From Phaeocystidibacter marisrubri (GTDB lineage: Bacteria; Bacteroidota; Bacteroidia; Flavobacteriales; Schleiferiaceae): a stretch of 64,000 nt of DNA. The number at the start of each line of letters is the position of its first letter. Within the stretch, counting starts at the first letter, position 1. A model generated the notes under the pieces. The model was not told where the DNA came from and ran no database searches. It saw nothing but the letters and a program-made list of their open reading frames with translations. A program made the translations under genes and the position numbers. The DNA is taken from positions 519,569-583,568 of the forward strand of contig NZ_WBVQ01000002.1 of the NCBI RefSeq assembly GCF_008933165.1, read 5' to 3'. This document shows, piece after piece, positions 29,140 to 38,057 of this stretch.

Positions 29140-30519
29140 TTACTCCTCCCAATAAGCGGCCACGAGCCGCTTTTGTTTTTCTAGCGTGAGGCGATAATCC
29201 TTTCGAATCACCAACCACTTCACGGCGGCTTGAACCATGGAGTTCTCTCTCGAGTTTACCAAGAACACCGAACTCTCACCAATGCGGAACCTTCTTCGCT
29301 CTGCATCTAAGAGGGTGTTGGACATGTTGTAGACTTCCTCTGCTTGCAACCATTGCTGGGCGAGGTTGTAGGATTGTGTCTGAAGACCTATCAACTCAGC
29401 TTCTGCTTCTTGAATAGCATTAAGTCGCTTTAATTCTGCTTCGTGATATTTAGCTTCTGCTGCATCGGCATTTCCCCTAGCTTTTCTCAAGAAGAGGGGA
29501 ATATTCACTTGTACCCCCCATTGATAATTATCGGGAAGGTTCCATGTAGCGTCTCCTGCCCCTCCTCGAAGGAAGTTGTACTGCACACTCACGTCTGGCC
29601 AAAGTTGAGCGCGTTTCCACCTGCGTTGATTCAAGGCACGATCCACTTCTACTGTCAATGCGGCTACTTGTGGTTGATCCGCAAGCATGGCGTAGAGTTT
29701 AGTACTATCGTTCGGGATAATGAAGTCAAGGGCCGAAAGATCGGGATGAATCGAATCTGGCACTTCCAAAGGCACGCCTCCATCGGTCCACAGCATTGCA
29801 CTTAAAGACGCTCTCGCTTTAGCGGCCTTTGCTGCGGCCTCCTGCGTGTTTAGCTTTCGATTGTACCACTGAATTCTACTTTCAACAGTATCCATTGCTG
29901 GACGATCTCCTGTTTCATAGGCGCGTTTCAACCATTCAAAGCGCTCTTTGGCCAGTTGCTCTACCTCCTTGTAAATCGAATATTCGGCCTCCTTCAAAGC
30001 CCATTCAAAGTAGCGAACATGGGTTTCGTACATCACATCGCTATACGCCAATCGTTGCTCTGCTTCTGTACGATCTACCACCAGTTGGGCATCGCGAAGC
30101 ATAGCTCGCCTTTCATCCCAAATTAAATCGCCACCTACGGGAACACTCACCCCCACTTTCCACAACCCCTCGTTGGGCATGGTTTCTTGTGGATTGAGAT
30201 AAACTCCTTCAGCAAATGCACGGTAGGCATAAACGTCCACTCCTAACCAAGTGGGGAGCTTCAAGCCAGCCTGACCATATTGAAAATACTCTGTTCCTTC
30301 AAACTGCTTTTCTGAATAATTTCCAGATAGATAAGGATCGAAAGAACCACGAGTAGCCATCACATTGGCGTTTGCACCTTCCATTCTATATTCCAAGCTG
30401 CGAACTACCGGATGGTGACGTTCTACCCACGTCAATACCGTATCCAGACTTAAGCTCACTTTTTGTGCCGAAAGCCCGAGACTAAAGAATAGCGCGATGA
30501 TTCCTAGACCCCACCTCAT
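29140..30519 (-). CDS. TolC-family outer membrane efflux/secretion channel
   Basis: 459 residues. A signal peptide precedes the two OEP repeats of the TolC family, with long amphipathic helices (for example around LQTQSYNLAQQWLQAEEVYN near 385) and short outer-membrane strands. It should form the outer-membrane channel of the tripartite system encoded with the HlyD and ABC genes. Its ATG overlaps the HlyD stop by 4 nt. Confidence 0.85.
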   Translation of the reverse strand: MRWGLGIIALFFSLGLSAQKVSLSLDTVLTWVERHHPVVRSLEYRMEGANANVMATRGSFDPYLSGNYSEKQFEGTEYFQYGQAGLKLPTWLGVDVYAYRAFAEGVYLNPQETMPNEGLWKVGVSVPVGGDLIWDERRAMLRDAQLVVDRTEAEQRLAYSDVMYETHVRYFEWALKEAEYSIYKEVEQLAKERFEWLKRAYETGDRPAMDTVESRIQWYNRKLNTQEAAAKAAKARASLSAMLWTDGGVPLEVPDSIHPDLSALDFIIPNDSTKLYAMLADQPQVAALTVEVDRALNQRRWKRAQLWPDVSVQYNFLRGGAGDATWNLPDNYQWGVQVNIPLFLRKARGNADAAEAKYHEAELKRLNAIQEAEAELIGLQTQSYNLAQQWLQAEEVYNMSNTLLDAERRRFRIGESSVFLVNSRENSMVQAAVKWLVIRKDYRLTLEKQKRLVAAYWEE

Positions 30520-31853
30520 TTGGAAGAAGAGTTAGAAGATGTAGACTTGGTACTTGAACTTGAGTTCGAGGTTGGATTCTGCGGCGCATCATACGACTCA
30601 GCTGGGAAGCCATTGATCTGTCGCCAGATCTCATACCACACTGGAACCTCATCCAACAAAATGTATGCACGAGCCCCCGTTCCGAAAGGCAATCTATCCG
30701 GCCAATCCTCCGATGGACGAAGTAATATCCTAAATGTACCGCCCGCTTCTGGAGTCTGACTCACCACCGCCACATGAGCAGAATATGTACCGAAGTTCAA
30801 ATCGGGCTTTCCACTAATTGCCAATGCTGGAAAACCTTCAAATTCGATTTGAGCCAAGTGACCTTCTTCCAACAGCGGCATGTCCATAGCGCGCACATGA
30901 ATCTCCACGGCTCTATCATCAGAGGTGGGAAAGAGTTCGGCGATTGGTGTTCCCGCCGAAATGTTCTCACCGATACCTCGAATGTATATTCGACTGACGA
31001 CTCCTTCTTGAGGAGCACGTACGGTGTGGTACGACTGACGAACTTCCACGGTGTTTCTTCGGTTCTGTAACTTGGCAATTTCAGCCAATGCAGCCTCGCG
31101 ATGAGAAATAGCCGTGTACTGTTCACTTCTGGCCTTCGCAATGTATTCCGCATAATCTGCCTCCAAGCGCTGACGAGCAGCTTTGCTTTGTCGCCACTGG
31201 TTCTCTGCACTTGTCAGTTTAGCCTGCGCCTCTTGTAGTGATTGAAGTCGTTGTTCAAGCTCATATTTGCTCTTAATTCCCTCTCGGTAAAGCGTATCGG
31301 CTCGTTTGTATTGATTCCCCGCCAACTCGTAATTCACGCGTGCAGCGGCAAAATCTGCGCTATCAGATTGAATCTTTAGGTCCAATTCACCTCGCTTAAT
31401 TCGCAAGCTCAACTGCAAGGCCTCTACTTGATCTGCTTGAGCATTTGCCTTGTTCAAGTAAGCTTCAGCCGCGGCAACTTTCGCATTGAGTTCTTGATCG
31501 ATACGTTCCAGCAAATTGGGATCGAGATAAGAAGCGTCTACTTCGCTTAGGTAAGCAAGGGTATCGCCCTCTTGAACAGTGTCCCCTTCGCGAACAAACC
31601 AACGTGTAATTTTTCCAGGAATAGGAGATTGGACATCTTGAGGACGAACCGCTGGATCGTAATTCGTGATCTTCCCATAGCCAGAAATGTTTTGCGTCCA
31701 TGGTACAAACAACAGCAAAATCACAACAAACGTCAGCACTGCAGACCATCGCACAAATCGCTTGATCGTCTTACTAATCGAAGTCTGATCGAATGTCTTT
31801 ACCACTTCTGGATCAACCTTATCTCTTATGGGATTTCTTGAAATGTTCAGCAT
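30516..31853 (-). CDS. HlyD-family periplasmic adaptor (membrane fusion protein)
   Basis: 445 residues. A cytoplasmic N-terminus leads to one TM helix (about 34-55). A biotinyl-lipoyl half-domain with GKITRWFVREGDTVQEGDTL (about 94-113), a long alpha-helical hairpin (about 130-270), a second lipoyl half and a beta-barrel domain (VRAPQEGVVSRIYI near 285) follow. The C-terminus ends in an unusual Ser/Asn/Thr-rich tail of about 20 residues. It bridges the ABC protein and the TolC channel and lies 1 nt downstream of the ABC gene. Confidence 0.88.
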   Translation of the reverse strand: MLNISRNPIRDKVDPEVVKTFDQTSISKTIKRFVRWSAVLTFVVILLLFVPWTQNISGYGKITNYDPAVRPQDVQSPIPGKITRWFVREGDTVQEGDTLAYLSEVDASYLDPNLLERIDQELNAKVAAAEAYLNKANAQADQVEALQLSLRIKRGELDLKIQSDSADFAAARVNYELAGNQYKRADTLYREGIKSKYELEQRLQSLQEAQAKLTSAENQWRQSKAARQRLEADYAEYIAKARSEQYTAISHREAALAEIAKLQNRRNTVEVRQSYHTVRAPQEGVVSRIYIRGIGENISAGTPIAELFPTSDDRAVEIHVRAMDMPLLEEGHLAQIEFEGFPALAISGKPDLNFGTYSAHVAVVSQTPEAGGTFRILLRPSEDWPDRLPFGTGARAYILLDEVPVWYEIWRQINGFPAESYDAPQNPTSNSSSSTKSTSSNSSSK

Positions 31854-31854
31854 A

Positions 31855-33522
31855 TCAGAAAAGGAGATCAGATTGAACTTCGCTTGGCAACTGTGAAGCT
31901 GGGCCGCTGTAGATGATTTTTCGGTCTTTTAGCACCACCACTTTAGAACAGCGCATTACAACGTCTTCTCTATTGGAGGCAATCAAGGTCGTCCCCTTCT
32001 GTTCAAAGATGGAATCCAACATTTGATTGCGAAGCGTCTTTTCGCAGTGTTCTAACTTATCGTGAATCAATAGAATTTTTGGATTTCTAAGCAGTGCACG
32101 AAGGAGAATCAATCGTTGTCCCGTAAAATGAGAAATGTGAACCGACTCGTATGAAATGCGTTCATCGAATCCTTTTGGAAGACTCTTGAACCAATCGTAT
32201 AATCCCACTTTCTTCAACCCATCAATAACGATATGATCCGAAGCGGTAGAATTTCCTACAATCAGATTCTCTCGCAGCGTTCCTTCAAAAATGGCCTCCT
32301 GACTCAAATTATCCCCCAATCCACATCGATAAGAGAACAGGTCAAGGTTGTCCAATTGAATACCATCAATATAAATATCACCCATCGTATCTGGATGAAG
32401 GGCAGCAACCGATCGCAATGCACTGGTTCTGCCACTTCCGGCATACCCCATCACCGCCAATTTCTCTCCCGCTTCTAGTCGAATGTTGGTCTCATCAAGA
32501 GTCACATCAAGCGGCCAGGCCTCTACATTGAAGTCCAATGTACGGCCTTCATCGCCCTCCAGTGGACGTTCGAGAACACCGGCTAATTTCTCTAAGGCCG
32601 TTACCGTATCGAAAAGAGGTTCTGCCAATTTGATCAACTTGTCTGCGTTGTTCGTGATCAAGATGAAAACAATTTCAACCGCCACAAATTGACCGATGCT
32701 CATCTGCTGTTGGAACACGAGGATTCCACCAAAAATAAGGAGCATAGCCGTTAGAATGAATCGGAATCCAACGAGTTGAGCATACTGAAGCACTAACACT
32801 TTAAAGTGTGATTTTCGAGCTCCCAACCACAATTCCGTGAGTGATTTCGTCTTCAAATTAGGCCACTTGCTATTGCCCGCCAACTTAAAGGTGTTCATGG
32901 AATTGGCCATTTGCTCTAACCAATATGCCACCTTGTATTTGTAGGTACTCTCATCCAAGCTAGTTCTCAAACCGCGCTTCCATGTTGACCGGAAGATCAA
33001 GATGACCAAAAGGACAACCACTGCACCCGCCACCACAAACAAGGAGTGATAAACAGAAAGCAATAGAAGCCCAAAGAAAATCTGTAGTGCACTCGTGGAG
33101 GCGTCAAGAAGAACCTTGGGAACTGCCTTCTGCACCGTAAGGGTGTCAAAGAAGCGGTTGACCAATTCTGGAGGGTTATCGCCCACTAGTGACTTCGGAT
33201 GAAGTCGGGGTATACGATAACTAAATGCGATGGTAGATCGAACAAAGATTCGCTGTTGAAGGCTCTCCGTAATTTGCATTTGCAGGATCTGAAGTACGCC
33301 AGCAAACAAGATGGCAGCGAGAACAACCCCCACTAAAAACCACCAAGAAGCGCTGGGCCTTCCTCCCATCACCAAGTTGATAATGGCCTGAAACCCCAAA
33401 GGCAAGGCTAAGCCAATGGCACCGTTCAAAACGGCAAAAAACAGTACGTAGAAAACTTCCTTCTTATCCTGTACAAGGAGTCGATACAAGCGCTCTAAGG
33501 GTGAAATTTTGGGCATGCTCAT
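31855..33522 (-). CDS. ABC transporter permease-ATPase with degenerate ATPase motifs
   Basis: 555 residues. An N-terminal six-helix type-1 exporter domain (about 1-310, with no peptidase domain) is followed by a nucleotide-binding domain (about 330-545). The canonical ATPase motifs are altered. Walker A reads GYAGSGRTS (Lys to Arg, near 360), the signature is HFTGQ instead of LSGGQ (near 467), Walker B reads LLIHDKLE with the Asp-Glu pair changed to His-Asp (near 487), and the H-loop histidine is Asn (IASNRED, near 515). The Q-loop glutamine remains. Together with HlyD and TolC it looks like a type-1-secretion-like exporter, but ATP hydrolysis is doubtful. A partner ATPase outside the operon is possible (inference). 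Confidence 0.85.
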   Translation of the reverse strand: MSMPKISPLERLYRLLVQDKKEVFYVLFFAVLNGAIGLALPLGFQAIINLVMGGRPSASWWFLVGVVLAAILFAGVLQILQMQITESLQQRIFVRSTIAFSYRIPRLHPKSLVGDNPPELVNRFFDTLTVQKAVPKVLLDASTSALQIFFGLLLLSVYHSLFVVAGAVVVLLVILIFRSTWKRGLRTSLDESTYKYKVAYWLEQMANSMNTFKLAGNSKWPNLKTKSLTELWLGARKSHFKVLVLQYAQLVGFRFILTAMLLIFGGILVFQQQMSIGQFVAVEIVFILITNNADKLIKLAEPLFDTVTALEKLAGVLERPLEGDEGRTLDFNVEAWPLDVTLDETNIRLEAGEKLAVMGYAGSGRTSALRSVAALHPDTMGDIYIDGIQLDNLDLFSYRCGLGDNLSQEAIFEGTLRENLIVGNSTASDHIVIDGLKKVGLYDWFKSLPKGFDERISYESVHISHFTGQRLILLRALLRNPKILLIHDKLEHCEKTLRNQMLDSIFEQKGTTLIASNREDVVMRCSKVVVLKDRKIIYSGPASQLPSEVQSDLLF

Positions 33523-33545
33523 CCAAGAGTGTTGTTATTTTACAA

Positions 33546-33554
33546 GCAAAGGTA
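33546..33554 (-). promoter_or_regulatory. Bacteroidota -7 promoter element (TACCTTTGC)
   Basis: On the minus strand TACCTTTGC is a perfect TAnnTTTGC. It lies 24 nt upstream of the ABC transporter ATG, which identifies the start of the ABC-HlyD-TolC operon. Confidence 0.65.
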
Positions 33555-33694
33555 ACATCTCAAAAGCCTGACGGTTTAATGCTTACAGAGATTTTAAGAG
33601 AAATTTCACAAGTAATCTCACATTGTATAGAAGGTATGTCGAGAATGTTAAGGGGTTGATATGCGCTAGCCAGGCTCAATCCCCCTTAAAAACA

Positions 33695-33976
33695 TCATTG
33701 ATCTAACGTTTCAAGAAGTCGGCGTGAAGCCACAGCATCTTTGGCTTCCAACTGCTTTGACCAGCGCTCCAACAAAGGGCGCTCCAGCTTACCTTCACGG
33801 TATTCATCAGGATTCATGATGGGAATACCTTGAACGATCGGATAAAGTCGGTTGCACGATTCACAGGTAAAAAACCCTTCGAGAACTTCTCGATCTAGGG
33901 ATTGAGTGACAACGGTGAGTTTCAAATCACTCTTATCAAAAGGGCAACAAAGGATTTCTATCGTTTCAGTTTTCAT
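33695..33976 (-). CDS. Trm112-like zinc-ribbon protein
   Basis: 93 residues. Two cysteine pairs are visible: CC in ILCCPFDKSDL near 9-10 and CESC near 38-41. They are followed by RLYPIVQGIPIMNP near 43-56, the signature of the Trm112/UPF0434 family. Trm112 proteins in eukaryotes and archaea activate class I methyltransferases. Here a methyltransferase is encoded three genes upstream in the same operon, so a partnership is possible (inference). It overlaps the ThiE-like gene by 11 nt. Confidence 0.75.
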   Translation of the reverse strand: MKTETIEILCCPFDKSDLKLTVVTQSLDREVLEGFFTCESCNRLYPIVQGIPIMNPDEYREGKLERPLLERWSKQLEAKDAVASRRLLETLDQ

Positions 33977-34592
33977 GTTCTTTTACTTTTTGATTGAAAA
34001 TTCGAGCAGCTTCTGACGGAGAGTCGCTACTCATGATTCCAGAAACAACGGCAATTCCGTCGTATGGCAGGGTTTGAAGTTGAGGAAGTGTCTCTGGTGT
34101 AATCCCTCCTGCCAAGAAGATCAATCCAGAAAACCTTTCGCGCGCACGATGCACGGAGGCGTGATCTACCCATTCACAACTGTTGGAAGTGGAAGATGGG
34201 AACATGGAACAAAAGGAGATGTAATCAATGGAGTTCTCCTCGGCACGATCAATCACCTCCATTTCATTTGTACATGTGATACCCACAAGTACACCTTCTG
34301 GACACGCGTAATCTGTTGGCCATTCATCAAAGTGAATTCCCGAAACACTCGGACAATCTTCCACCCATTCGGGATGGTTATTGATAAACAGTGGCACGTC
34401 GAAGGTTCCACATAGCTTGCCGACTTTTTCGATCAATGCCAAAGGATTCTCAACCTGATCCCAATGGTCCCATAATTGGACCGCACAGACACCTTCCTCC
34501 AACACACTATTCAGTGCAGAAATAAGTTCAATTTCACTTTTTGAGGGATCTACCACCAGATAGAGTCCGCCCTTCATTCTCCGTCTATTCAT
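33966..34592 (-). CDS. divergent thiamine phosphate synthase-like (ThiE/TenI fold) protein
   Basis: 208 residues with the ThiE TIM-barrel pattern: GGLYLVVDP near 8-16, VCAVQLWDH at 35-43, PLFINNHPEW at 67-76, GIHFDE near 86, DYISFCSMFPSST near 123 and FLAGGITPETLP near 158, then YDGIAVVSGI. Several residues needed in canonical ThiE are changed. The QLRxK motif reads QLWDH, IND reads INN, the Asp after HLGQ is absent and the TK of the phosphate loop is STSNS. It may therefore act on another substrate or be regulatory. The start at 34592 makes an ATGA overlap with the upstream gene, better than the in-frame ATG 39 nt upstream. It is under TPP-riboswitch control. Confidence 0.75.
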   Translation of the reverse strand: MNRRRMKGGLYLVVDPSKSEIELISALNSVLEEGVCAVQLWDHWDQVENPLALIEKVGKLCGTFDVPLFINNHPEWVEDCPSVSGIHFDEWPTDYACPEGVLVGITCTNEMEVIDRAEENSIDYISFCSMFPSSTSNSCEWVDHASVHRARERFSGLIFLAGGITPETLPQLQTLPYDGIAVVSGIMSSDSPSEAARIFNQKVKEHEN

Positions 34593-35644
34593 CTCCACCC
34601 GTTTTTTAGCGCATGGCCAAATGCCTCCCAATAAGGATCCCGATCTTGGTACTCCAACTCTCCACTTTCATCGCCATTGGTCCATTGAAGGCCATGTGTT
34701 TGCTCTTTCAGCACTCCGACCATAGACGCTGAAATTCCAGCATTCTTGAGTCGTTGGATGACCGAATCACTGGTGCCAGCAGCGCAAGCAATAATCATAG
34801 ATCCCGCACCTACGCATCGGAATGGATTCAATGAAAAGAGTCGACATATCGCCTCTTGCGCCTCTTCTAATGGCAAGCTTTCAAGATTGATTTGCAATCC
34901 GCATGAAGAAGCTGTTGCCAATTCAATGAGCGCACCGATCACTCCTCCTTCTGTTACATCGTGTAGGGCCTTTACTTCGGGGTGCTCTCCCTGTTGACCG
35001 ACTGCTATCAGAGCATCCTTCAACGAACTCGTCTGGAAAAACGCCGATGACGCTTCTCGCTGTATTTCAGTGCCGAGTTTTTGCACCACCGTTTCAGGAA
35101 AGCTCATAGCGAGAATGGAGGTAGAAGAAAGTGCTGCCGACTTCGTCACGATTAACTCATCGTTGGGCGACCCCATATTGGAGAGGCGGATTTTATCCAA
35201 ATCACCAATAGAAGTAAGCGTTCCGCCACCAGCGATGGTAGAATTAACTCCCTCAAAAAAACCGGTATGCCCACCAGTGATAGCCAACCCGATCTCCGAA
35301 CTGAACTTATGGATAAAACTCCAATATGTCTTAAAATCACTCTCGCTTAGATGAGCAGGAAGATTCAAGACAAACTGCCCAAACTGGGGAGCTAGACCAC
35401 TGGTTGCCATATCATTGGCCATCAAGTGTACGCTCAACCAAGCCGACTCTTCCAGCCCCAAGGAGGGAATGTAGCTGAGAGGATCGCTTGTTTGAACCAA
35501 ACCACGACCATTCCCTATATCCACGAGACTCACATCCACGCCAAAGGAAGGGCCTGTTCGAACAGCGGATGGAGTGGCGCCTGTTTGCGAACAGATGATA
35601 TCTGTCAACTCAGAAGAGCCCAGTTTACCTGCTTCAAGCTTCAT
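34589..35644 (-). CDS. AIR synthase-related protein (PurM/ThiL/HypE superfamily)
   Basis: 351 residues with the two-domain PurM fold. The ATP/Mg region includes LVQTSDPLSYIPSLG near 50 and HLMANDMATSGLAPQ near 73, the middle has AITGGHTGFFEGVNS near 118 and the C-domain has the hallmark HDVTEGGVIGAL near 227. It lacks the C-terminal PRIC peptide that HypE needs, so a hydrogenase role is unlikely. Position between a TPP riboswitch and a ThiE-like gene suggests a ThiL-like phosphate-transfer step in thiamine metabolism (inference). It overlaps its neighbours by 4 nt on both sides. Confidence 0.75.
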   Translation of the reverse strand: MKLEAGKLGSSELTDIICSQTGATPSAVRTGPSFGVDVSLVDIGNGRGLVQTSDPLSYIPSLGLEESAWLSVHLMANDMATSGLAPQFGQFVLNLPAHLSESDFKTYWSFIHKFSSEIGLAITGGHTGFFEGVNSTIAGGGTLTSIGDLDKIRLSNMGSPNDELIVTKSAALSSTSILAMSFPETVVQKLGTEIQREASSAFFQTSSLKDALIAVGQQGEHPEVKALHDVTEGGVIGALIELATASSCGLQINLESLPLEEAQEAICRLFSLNPFRCVGAGSMIIACAAGTSDSVIQRLKNAGISASMVGVLKEQTHGLQWTNGDESGELEYQDRDPYWEAFGHALKNGWR

Positions 35645-36357
35645 GACTCCACGTCATTAAAGCGAACATACAGGCCAAAGAAATCACCGATAGGCACATG
35701 CCATTGTTGAACAGGGAAGCGCTTTGGCAATCCCGTACAGGTCCATTGAATGCTGTAATCTCGTCCTTCCAAAGCCTCATCAATCACTGCGATGAGTGAC
35801 TTTGGAGTGTAGAAATTTGCCGTTACATAAAACGGGTTCTTGCCGAACATTTGTTGTACCCTTCTACGGATGTACTTGGTCGTATTCCGGTTCATCATAC
35901 CAAAGGCAATACCGTACTTGGCAACCCTTGCCGATTCGCGTATCACGGCTACAGGATCCTTGTAGTATTCAAAAGTGGTAATGAAGGCAAGGCTATCAAA
36001 AGTATGGTCTTTGAAAGGCATGTGGTGAGAATCGGCATTCACCAAGTCACCCGAAAATAGATGACGTGCTTGAGACAGCATTAGAGGTGAAATATCACCT
36101 CCTGTAGCATCAATACCAATCTCTTTCCACCAACGGCTAAAGCGCGTTGTTCCGCAACCAAATTCCAGCAGTTTCTGAACGCGAGGATCACTTTTCACCA
36201 GTTGCTCCATCACGCGCTTCTGCCAAATTTCAGCACGCTTGTACCTACCCTCATACCATTGTTCGTAGGTATCGGTATGATCTCGATTGAAGAACCACTC
36301 CTCCCGGCCTTGCCAGGTTCTCAGTTCTGAAGGAAGAATTTCGAATTTGTTGTCCAT
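35641..36357 (-). CDS. class I SAM-dependent methyltransferase, first gene of the TPP-riboswitch operon
   Basis: About 238 residues from the ATG at 36357, preferred over an ATG 87 nt upstream because the longer form would begin in the riboswitch expression platform. Motif I is LLEFGCGTTRFSRWW near 70, followed by ATGGDISPLMLSQAR and the motif HHMPFKDHTFDSLAF near 115. The C-terminal part (NPFYVTANFYTPKSL) is unassigned. It is a small-molecule-type methyltransferase with unknown substrate; thiamine-related chemistry is suggested only by its regulation. It overlaps the AIR synthase-related gene by 4 nt. Confidence 0.8.
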   Translation of the reverse strand: MDNKFEILPSELRTWQGREEWFFNRDHTDTYEQWYEGRYKRAEIWQKRVMEQLVKSDPRVQKLLEFGCGTTRFSRWWKEIGIDATGGDISPLMLSQARHLFSGDLVNADSHHMPFKDHTFDSLAFITTFEYYKDPVAVIRESARVAKYGIAFGMMNRNTTKYIRRRVQQMFGKNPFYVTANFYTPKSLIAVIDEALEGRDYSIQWTCTGLPKRFPVQQWHVPIGDFFGLYVRFNDVES

Positions 36358-36390
36358 CGAAGTGTCATGTGTTTTTCGTGATATCTGGAT

Positions 36391-36419
36391 AGAAAAACAC
36401 CAACGACGGCTAGCGTCGT
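36391..36419 (-). terminator. candidate riboswitch expression-platform terminator hairpin
   Basis: Read on the minus strand, a 6-bp stem ACGACG / CGTCGT (36414-36419 with 36403-36408) and a 5-nt loop are followed by TGGTG and a T5 run (36392-36396). It lies between the TPP aptamer and the methyltransferase ATG, where a ligand-controlled terminator is expected. Confidence 0.5.
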
Positions 36420-36448
36420 GACAAACAACCATATGTGTGTACAATAGA

Positions 36449-36530
36449 GCATCCCTACGTTGGCATTATCCAAATCAGGTTGTACGGGTATGATCTCAGT
36501 CTATGCCTCTTTGGCATTGACACCCCGTGC
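36449..36530 (-). promoter_or_regulatory. TPP riboswitch (THI element)
   Basis: All conserved blocks occur in order on the minus strand: CGGGGTG (36527-36521), a variable hairpin ATGCC..GGCAT (36517-36503), CTGAGA (36499-36494), ACCCG, ACCTGAT (36480-36474), GGATAATGCC (36471-36462) and GTAGGGA (36458-36452). This is the thiamine pyrophosphate aptamer. It lies about 95 nt ahead of the methyltransferase gene, so TPP should repress the four-gene operon downstream. Confidence 0.95.
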
Positions 36531-36534
36531 AGGG

Positions 36535-36543
36535 GCAAAGGTA
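36535..36543 (-). promoter_or_regulatory. Bacteroidota -7 promoter element (TACCTTTGC) for the riboswitch transcript
   Basis: A perfect TAnnTTTGC on the minus strand ends 5 nt before the TPP aptamer. Transcription would start at about 36530, exactly at the 5' edge of the aptamer. Confidence 0.65.
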
Positions 36544-36563
36544 GGGAATGGTTTTTCGAAAAC

Positions 36564-38057
36564 TCAGTCTCGATTCAAAACATCTTTACGCACCAAGAGA
36601 ATTGTCTCATACTCTGAATAATCCAAGACCACTTCGTAATTTGAGGGAACATTTCCCATGATATCCTGGGGGCGTGCTAACACCAGTTCTTTGGTAAAAG
36701 AAATATCCTCCTTCCAATCGATGCTGATAGGGTAAGATCTGGAATGAACGTAGTAATTGACATTCGAGCGATAAAGCGCGGGTTTCTCGATTTCAATCTC
36801 TCGCTGGGCAATTGAGGCTATTTGACCTGCTCGAGTCATAATCTCCTCCATTTTTGCACTGTATCGCCAGTCTCTAGCATGTGAGAAATTTGAAAATAAA
36901 CCAAAGTTCAACGCCCATACCAGCCCCATTGCCATCAATAAATACTGGAAGAATTTTCTCCATTTTCCAGCTTCACCTTCTAGCGCGACTCCAATGGAAA
37001 ATGCCCAAAGAGAAATCAGCGGGACGTAGATAATTCCCGTACGAGTGCGCGGGAGTAGCGCATCGAAAAGCTCGTGCTCCAATACCCAGCCCAAAAGCGA
37101 AACGAACAGGAGCAGTGAACTCACGACAAATAGCGGATGAAACAGCTTCGTGCTCAGCACTCGCAAAACGCCCACCAATACAAACAAAAGCAAGGGAATT
37201 AAAGTGAGGGGTTTCATGATAGGCACGGCCGTATCGGTATACAAGAAATTAGAAATCAAGTGATCACCGAAGCTGGCATAAGAATCCGTTCCAAAGAACA
37301 ATTCACCGAGGGCTCGAAGCTCTAGTAATTCCATCACCGAAAAAGAAAGACAACTCAGGGCAATGATGAGTGAAACTCCAAAGCTCACCATTACTCTGGA
37401 CGTAAAGCCCTTCTTCCATTTCACCACAAAACCCGCCAAAATCATTATCCACATGACAATAGAGACATTGAGAACAGCATTGTTCGAAAGCACAGCGAGT
37501 CCCGCACCAAGCGAGGCATACACGAGATGAACCTCCCCATTCTTCGAAAACGCCTTCATGATTTGAGCAATGGCAAATGCTGAAAAGGCCATGCTGAGTC
37601 CATATCCTCTCGCCAAGGCAAAAAACTCTAGAGGAAACGGAAGGGCGAGTAAAAGAATTGCTCCTGTGAAGTAGAGCCAATTGGTCTTTGCGTAGCGAAC
37701 AATTTGAGAAACCGACCATGCATACAAGAAAAACGACAACACATTGGGCAGTCGCAAGGCAAAAGCACTGCTGCCAAACACCGATTGCGACAGCTTCATT
37801 AGCTGTGTATTCAGAAAGTGATTGTTGGCAATGTTCATTTCCTCTCCCCAGAGTCCAACTACATAGTTGTACGACATCGCTTCGTCTATCGTAAACGAAA
37901 GCCAAGCACTTCTCAAAACGACATAGAGTCCGAAAAGAGAAGCTAGTAAACCATACAGAGATTGCTTAGTCAAGGCAGCGCTATTTTTACCAACGAAGAT
38001 AAGTCGCTTACCAGATAAAGTCTGCATCCTAGAAATTGAGTGCCTCCTCATTGACAA
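36564..38057 (-). CDS. integral membrane glycosyltransferase-like protein (GT-C, PMT/ArnT-like)
   Basis: Up to 497 residues with about 11-12 hydrophobic helices. The first periplasmic loop has SFTIDEAMSYNY (acidic GT-C motif) near 55 and NNHFLNTQLMKL near 77, followed by FALARGYGLSMAFS near 147. This is the pattern of GT39/PMT-like membrane glycosyltransferases of Bacteroidota, which use polyprenyl-phosphate sugars. The start is uncertain; Met11 at 38027 is possible. It stops about 20 nt before the promoter of the riboswitch operon. Confidence 0.65.
   Translation of the reverse strand: MSMRRHSISRMQTLSGKRLIFVGKNSAALTKQSLYGLLASLFGLYVVLRSAWLSFTIDEAMSYNYVVGLWGEEMNIANNHFLNTQLMKLSQSVFGSSAFALRLPNVLSFFLYAWSVSQIVRYAKTNWLYFTGAILLLALPFPLEFFALARGYGLSMAFSAFAIAQIMKAFSKNGEVHLVYASLGAGLAVLSNNAVLNVSIVMWIMILAGFVVKWKKGFTSRVMVSFGVSLIIALSCLSFSVMELLELRALGELFFGTDSYASFGDHLISNFLYTDTAVPIMKPLTLIPLLLFVLVGVLRVLSTKLFHPLFVVSSLLLFVSLLGWVLEHELFDALLPRTRTGIIYVPLISLWAFSIGVALEGEAGKWRKFFQYLLMAMGLVWALNFGLFSNFSHARDWRYSAKMEEIMTRAGQIASIAQREIEIEKPALYRSNVNYYVHSRSYPISIDWKEDISFTKELVLARPQDIMGNVPSNYEVVLDYSEYETILLVRKDVLNRD

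Follow-up and report, generated by a model that had tools for sequence, protein, structure and literature searches.

The 64,000-nt window analysed here (Phaeocystidibacter marisrubri contig NZ_WBVQ01000002.1, positions 519,569 to 583,568) contained a four-gene operon behind a thiamine pyrophosphate (TPP) riboswitch, and the genes were designated MT, PURM, THIE, and TRM. All four were located on the minus strand with overlapping ends, downstream of the aptamer: (i) MT (P0004, 238 aa; 35641-36357), a class I S-adenosylmethionine-dependent methyltransferase (Pfam Methyltransf_11, 6.6e-17); (ii) PURM (P0003, 351 aa; 34589-35644), a HypE/SelD-like and probably ATP-using member of the PurM superfamily (AIRS_C, 8.5e-17; AIRS, 1.9e-07); (iii) THIE (33966-34592), a ThiE-family protein (TMP-TENI, 8.3e-23); and (iv) TRM (P0001, 93 aa; 33695-33976), a Trm112-like zinc-knuckle protein (Trm112p, 9.5e-10). 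The start of THIE was the ATG at 34592, as read from the sequence; P0002 corresponded to THIE from residue 5 on, and THIE residue numbers follow P0002. None of the four was thiC, thiG, thiH, or a transporter gene, and the coordinates together with the Pfam assignments confirmed the overlapping operon without these usual genes that a first-pass annotation of this DNA had described.

The aptamer (36435-36537, minus strand) matched the TPP riboswitch family RF00059 over the full length of the covariance model (model positions 1-105), scoring 65.6 bits against a gathering score of 54.3 (E 1.2e-10), and no other Rfam match anywhere in the window reached its gathering score. Its first bases were overlapped by TACCTTTGC (36535-36543, minus strand), read from the sequence as a predicted promoter element of the Bacteroidota type (TAnnTTTG); the complete aptamer right behind a predicted promoter, as annotated earlier, was thus recovered.

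A genome contig scan confirmed 329 PURM relatives, and the 80 loci most similar to the query were kept; some genera or genomes contributed several of these loci, and L070 was probably the same contig as L010. One TPP aptamer was found just upstream of the operon in all 80 kept loci with covariance model R1, for which four leaders from the group had served as input (one probably identical to L070), extending the claimed TPP control beyond this genome. The gene order MT-PURM-THIE-TRM was complete in 78 of the 85 loci examined, and the gene set was thereby found in other Bacteroidota, where the first-pass annotation had suggested looking; L035, L063, L068, L074, L075, L083, and L092 were short of at least one gene under the open reading frame (ORF) filter, L074 stopping at a contig edge. 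The record titles of the 80 kept loci named Balneolales and Bacteroidota lineages, the latter presumably belonging to Flavobacteriia, Cytophagia, Sphingobacteriia, and Bacteroidales. PURM was detected at E 1e-10 in 5 of the 88 genomes of the host's family (host counted); the four relatives carried the same four genes, with the riboswitch seen in three of them and the fourth locus starting inside MT. MT was detected at E 1e-70 in 7 of 198 drawn Bacteroidota genomes (at least 95% complete, host counted), while two Arenibacter genomes harbored two operon copies each (L016 plus L024, and L018 plus L022).

MT was the most conserved of the four proteins, with a mean pairwise identity of 0.78 across 77 loci; such an operon, rare and scattered yet with MT about 78% identical, would fit horizontal spread. 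Plasmid carriage was rejected, as MT matched none of 72,556 plasmid records searched at E 1e-30. The pairwise divergences of the four proteins across these 77 loci were correlated in all six pairings (r 0.58-0.83; PURM-THIE 0.83, MT-TRM 0.77, PURM-TRM 0.72, MT-PURM 0.69, and MT-THIE the lowest at 0.58), and none of 500 permutations reached the observed r in any pairing. Since shared ancestry alone gives some correlation, this result supported a common history only, and the values gave only hints of two sub-modules, PURM-THIE and MT-TRM.

The predicted THIE structure (mean pLDDT, a per-residue model confidence score, 94.8) was closest in fold to ThiE 3o15 (Z 24.8, root-mean-square deviation [rmsd] 2.4, 202 residues aligned), followed by TenI 1yad (Z 21.2, rmsd 2.3, 187 residues aligned). 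THIE therefore had the ThiE fold as well as the TMP-TENI domain; it scored 83.1 bits against the cut-off of 145.1 for the NCBIfam ThiE model TIGR00693, and the operon THIE copies listed in other genomes were also under this cut-off (at most 127.2 bits). The residue comparison was applied to 50 operon THIE sequences, together with four canonical ThiE from the genome panel (see below). Q35 and H83, which we take to be ThiE Q57 and H107, were present in 50/50 operon THIE and 4/4 canonical ThiE; T102 was T in 50/50 operon THIE and S or T in canonical ThiE; and GG 158-159 and S180 were present in 50/50 operon THIE. R59, K61, D93, D112, and K159 (Bacillus subtilis ThiE numbering), presumably the Mg-pyrophosphate ligands, were all kept in 4/4 canonical ThiE, while the 50 operon THIE sequences displayed the following at these positions: (i) W in all 50 (R in none) for R59; (ii) N or H in 49 and C in one (K in none) for K61; (iii) N in 37, E in 9, and D in 2 for D93; (iv) P in 48 and Q in 2 (D in none) for D112; and (v) A, S, V, or another residue (K in none) for K159. 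The operon proteins thus lacked the presumed ThiE ligand set for Mg-pyrophosphate and had instead gained an invariant W37, invariant C124 and C135 (50/50), and D85 (49/50).

Position 125, which we equate with the catalytic His of the TenI FGH motif, was S, A, or T in all 50 operon THIE. An ordinary ThiE or TenI was accordingly rejected as the identity of THIE, given the missed TIGR00693 cut-off and the loss of both the presumed pyrophosphate ligands and the TenI His. THIE shared the fold and the substrate-side residues of ThiE (2tps, 3o15) and differed from it in lacking the presumed Mg-pyrophosphate ligands and in having W37, C124, and C135; with five ligands lost and two invariant cysteines new, THIE is probably not a conventional ThiE, and its pocket would still suit a thiamine-like ligand. 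The earlier label 'ThiE-like' consequently stood for fold and Pfam family and did not stand for the pyrophosphate site, whose presumed ligands were missing across the operon's family.

PURM resembled HypE first in NCBIfam, then ThiL and SelD, falling far short of the cut-offs of HypE TIGR02124 (57.2 vs. 251.6 bits) and ThiL TIGR01379 (48.3 vs. 184.15 bits). HypE 2i6r was also the top match in the PDB profile search (1e-16), and the PURM model (pLDDT 91.8) was closest in fold to HypE 3wjp (Z 33.7), ahead of ThiL (28.3), SelD 3u0o (28.3), and PurM (22.7). The HDVTEGG motif was near invariant, and K7, present in 56/56 PURM, was aligned with SelD residue 20, presumably the essential Lys of SelD. 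HypE carries a C-terminal Cys and SelD an N-terminal Cys/Sec-Lys loop; any Cys within the last 25 residues was found in 1/56 PURM and Cys within the first 12 residues in 0/56, with the Lys (K7) kept. PURM thus shared the fold of HypE and SelD and the Lys of the latter, and differed from them in lacking the terminal Cys of either and in scoring far under their NCBIfam cut-offs. Because both types of Cys were missing, PURM was regarded as a separate member of the PurM superfamily, one that probably uses ATP and, by analogy, may activate a carbonyl or another group. The ThiL-like role proposed for it in the first-pass annotation was rejected: a separate ThiL was present in 56/56 panel genomes, PURM was nearer HypE in both profile and fold, and with a true ThiL in the host PURM is not needed as one.

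Seven PDB chains matched the MT profile at E 1e-5; methyltransferases without a named function stood at the top (1vlm, 1.3e-09), and two Bud23 chains (1.2e-06 and 2.1e-06) ranked behind three other methyltransferases. A defence role was also considered for MT and rejected, with nothing found beyond a weak mad2 match (1.4e-06, 25.5 bits). The TRM profile matched 6zxw_H (5.9e-13) and 6f5z_C (1.7e-09), small proteins taken here for archaeal Trm112, and human TRM112 chains more weakly. TRM belonged to the Trm112 family by Pfam PF03966 (38.7 bits vs. cut-off 22) and remained under the cut-off of the archaeal-type model NF038101 (69.6 vs. 77 bits), and the metal-ligand (zinc-knuckle) signature [C/D]Px[C/D]...Cx2C, as given in the part of PMC5372719 consulted, was present in 31/32 TRM sequences. 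Operon linkage and correlated divergence (r 0.77) suggest that MT and TRM form one holoenzyme with TRM as the activating subunit. The arrangement would be like that of the Trm112-dependent methyltransferases Bud23 and Trm9 described in PMC5372719, in that a Trm112 protein with this signature is encoded together with a class I methyltransferase whose profile matches Bud23 chains; the known Trm112 partners modify RNA or protein, while the present pair was under a TPP riboswitch. A literature search on Trm112 with small molecules gave no lead among the matches listed. The function of bacterial Trm112 was not established according to the consulted part of that 2017 review (PMC5372719), which makes an MT-TRM pair under a metabolite riboswitch useful.

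Thiamine genes were searched in a panel of 56 genomes, composed of 39 operon-bearing ones (the host, four family members, and 34 reached through 34 of the 80 kept loci, picked for variety and of unstated completeness) and 17 family members without the operon. ThiC (PF01964) was found in 4/39 operon genomes and 1/17 without the operon, and ThiG above 300 bits in the same five genomes; ThiG matches of 19-37 bits elsewhere covered at most half of the model, as did that of the host (27.9 bits, over the Pfam cut-off of 23), and all of these were treated as other TIM barrels. ThiD at E 1e-30 was found in 5/39 and 1/17, TenA at E 1e-10 in 1/39 and 0/17, Thi4 at E 1e-20 in 0/56, thiamine pyrophosphokinase in 7/39 and 0/17, and ThiE over the curated cut-off in 4/39 and 1/17, while ThiL over its curated NCBIfam cut-off, separate from PURM, was present in 56/56, host included. 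Besides the operon THIE, 8/39 operon genomes encoded another ThiE-family protein scoring over 100 bits; the remaining 31 had no match above 30 bits outside the operon.

At these thresholds ThiC, a true ThiG, ThiD, TenA, Thi4, thiamine pyrophosphokinase, and a second ThiE were not found in the host, which of the thiamine genes searched held just ThiL and the operon THIE. The suspected absence of a canonical thiE from this genome was thus borne out and that of thiL was not; a full canonical pathway elsewhere in the host and a lack of TPP control in relatives, which together would have refuted the earlier proposal, were likewise not seen, the other canonical thi genes searched being missing from the host and TPP control present in 80/80 kept loci. 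With ThiD not found in 34/39 operon genomes, there was no evident source of hydroxymethylpyrimidine pyrophosphate (HMP-PP), and this absence together with the ligand losses indicates that HMP-PP is probably not a substrate of THIE.

The host had a second TPP riboswitch (G000 C2:666894-666993; about 6895-6994 of L008, plus strand), which scored 45.7 bits, below the gathering score, and stood ahead of a TonB-dependent receptor gene, with an AAA_28 protein just upstream; this is likely a thiamine uptake locus. A thiamine-binding protein suspected beside it, of 91 aa, had no Pfam match at E 0.001 and was dismissed. Another 20 TPP riboswitches from panel genomes (19 operon-bearing, one without the operon) were inspected for the genes that they lead: 16/20 preceded a 624-850-residue gene resembling a TonB receptor by eye (4/4 tested were TonB by Pfam), one preceded a gene of the nicotinamide mononucleotide-transporter family (PnuT-like), one, in an operon-bearing Lunatimonas genome (L103; G088 C23), led a compact salvage set of thiM-thiE-thiD-tenA, and two had no clear target. 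Given these TonB-type targets, many operon bearers appear to import thiamine and to finish with ThiL, with the operon as an extra. As the operon was kept beside ThiC, ThiG, and ThiD in four genomes and beside this salvage set in one, it probably supplies something that these routes do not.

Further riboswitch arrangements were observed in the panel: (i) in one Marivirga contig (L104, G095), two TPP aptamers separated by about 100 nt (C36:73917-74013 and 74121-74215, both minus strand) were followed by a gene the size of a TonB receptor, and a third aptamer lay 13 kb upstream of them (C36:87466-87561, minus strand); (ii) G089 had a similar close pair (C32:376118-376239 and 376275-376373); and (iii) a Salegentibacter riboswitch of 74 bits (L105; G094 C35:158193-158279) had, under the ORF filter, no same-strand ORF of at least 90 aa in the roughly 1.2 kb that follow it.

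As for the leader, TAnnTTTG was found at -40 to +15 of the aptamer in 36/80 related loci, compared to 50/2139 control stretches of 55 nt from farther upstream. A terminator-like hairpin with a T-rich tail (36403-36419, minus strand; pattern scan), not listed in the first-pass annotation, lay between the aptamer and the MT start as a possible expression platform, and this hairpin 3' of the aptamer makes transcription attenuation plausible at the host operon. The region 33400-36700 had eight terminator-like sites on both strands, compared to 3.4 (standard deviation 2.0) in shuffles, and the folding of the window leader was not unusual (z -1.37; 23/200 shuffles folded equally well or better). The same pattern was met in 17/80 leaders of relatives, compared to 36/1600 mononucleotide shuffles, a count that speaks against a uniform expression platform.

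The flanks gave no conserved fifth operon gene, the clusters of flanking ORFs being genus-level neighbours (Pontibacter, Algoriphagus, and Arenibacter) or broad families; the largest was an ABC transporter near 14/85 loci in mixed orientation. In the window, an ABC transporter (ATPase plus membrane domains) and then a HlyD-family protein were encoded just downstream of the operon (30516-33522, minus strand), an export pair apparently unrelated to it, and the gene immediately preceding the riboswitch (36564-38057, also minus strand) encoded a 497-aa hydrophobic protein without Pfam match at E 0.001.

The operon was best explained as an accessory salvage or repair module feeding thiamine monophosphate (TMP) to ThiL from a thiamine-related compound, a reading to which we give an even chance. 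It was preferred because of the TPP control in all whole loci, the occurrence chiefly in genomes that lack the canonical genes, and the atypical ThiE barrel, the coexistence with ThiC plus ThiG in four genomes being part of its ground. Low cellular TPP would let the riboswitch permit expression; the MT-Trm112 pair and the ATP-using PURM would prepare the thiamine-related compound; THIE, with the pyrimidine- and thiazole-phosphate-facing residues kept and the pyrophosphate site lost, would act on a TMP-like molecule; and the product, TMP or thiamine, would become TPP via the separate ThiL. The undescribed thiamine salvage branch of the first-pass annotation thereby stayed the best reading, shorn of the ThiL-like PURM.

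Several points weigh against it. We infer both the salvage or repair role and the TMP-like substrate. The 80 loci were the most similar of 329, and R1 was trained on the leaders of its own group. The residue argument leans on presumed ThiE numbering and roles, for which the title of PDB 3o16 (K159A) was the sole support met, a literature search on ThiE active-site residues having returned nothing; S180 and G159 also varied among the four canonical ThiE. The absence of canonical genes holds for those searched genome-wide (ThiC, ThiG, ThiD, TenA, Thi4, thiamine pyrophosphokinase, and ThiE). The second ThiE-family protein in 8/39 operon genomes makes a division of labour possible. Moreover, the operon is dispensable, as 16 panel genomes had neither operon nor ThiC and apparently get by on uptake and ThiL.

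The main rival was a thiamine-sparing backup, in which the operon would make no B1 and would offer a TPP-independent substitute for a TPP-dependent step when TPP is scarce. Its regulatory logic would be that of the B12-independent isozymes controlled by B12 riboswitches, MT and PURM are not known to take part in thiamine chemistry, and the operon stood beside ThiC and ThiG in 4/39 operon genomes; it is nevertheless unlikely, since the THIE fold was nearest thiamin phosphate synthase and TenI (Z 24.8 and 21.2) and Q35 and H83 in 50/50 THIE pointed to a thiamine-like ligand. A somewhat smaller chance was given to pyrophosphate-independent TMP formation: MT-Trm112 would make a methylated leaving group (possibly a sulfonium or quaternary amine) on a pyrimidine compound, PURM would activate the partner with ATP, and THIE would join the two, its invariant Trp and Cys standing in for the pyrophosphate site. 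No more probable was ordinary salvage of TPP from HMP plus hydroxyethylthiazole (HET), with THIE a slightly divergent ThiE/TenI and PURM a ThiL-like kinase: the Pfam assignments and the TPP control suit it, while ThiD, required for HMP-PP, was not found at E 1e-30 in 34/39 operon genomes, the five presumed pyrophosphate ligands were lost, the TenI His position was S/A/T, a true ThiL was present in 56/56 genomes, and THIE at 83.1 bits was far under the ThiE cut-off of 145.1.

A shade less credible still was a complete alternative de novo route, in which three enzymes would build the moieties without ThiC and ThiG, and PURM would close a ring like aminoimidazole ribonucleotide synthase. PurM chemistry is indeed a formyl-amide ring closure, and ThiC, ThiG, and ThiD were all missing in 34/39 operon genomes, but two heterocycles would be much to build with three enzymes, the host's second riboswitch (45.7 bits) stood ahead of an importer-like TonB receptor, and the operon occurred beside ThiC plus ThiG in four genomes. 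Thiamine antimetabolite production or thiamine breakdown was very improbable despite the methyltransferases of antivitamin pathways (e.g., bacimethrin), because expression would, with the usual switch action, peak at the lowest TPP, when least affordable, and no export or resistance gene recurred across genera except the broad ABC-transporter homologues (14/85 loci, mixed orientation).

The TPP-riboswitch thi operons known from Bacteroidota include, in the part of PMC5613172 consulted, thiSEGCHF-tenI, pnuT-tnr3, and OMthi of Bacteroides thetaiotaomicron. The window operon shared with these the TPP riboswitch, the phylum, and a ThiE/TenI-family gene; it did not contain their thiC, thiG, thiH, thiS, thiF, or transporter genes, and MT, PURM, and TRM had no counterpart among the operons covered there (PMC5613172). 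The gene set was not named in the main-text parts consulted of the TPP-riboswitch surveys PMC3766115 and PMC2211319. A literature search restricted to PMC articles likewise found no description of the MT-PURM-THIE-TRM set.

Many waters are poor in thiamine, and the known thiamine synthesis genes searched were missing from most of the operon-bearing genomes examined. The conserved operon points to an undescribed way of recovering vitamin B1 from a related compound, and if a TPP-controlled enzyme set does lie outside the known routes, the range of B1 sources open to these bacteria is underestimated. Expression in Baltic Bacteroidetes includes genes for thiazole and B1 synthesis and none for HMP synthesis, according to the consulted part of PMC12442306; part of that signal could be operon THIE annotated as thiE, and pipelines naming THIE 'thiE' would overstate B1 synthesis of operon bearers. 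Bacterial Trm112 gains a concrete candidate partner and regulatory context, and the pyrophosphate-independent TMP route, if true, would give it a metabolic role.

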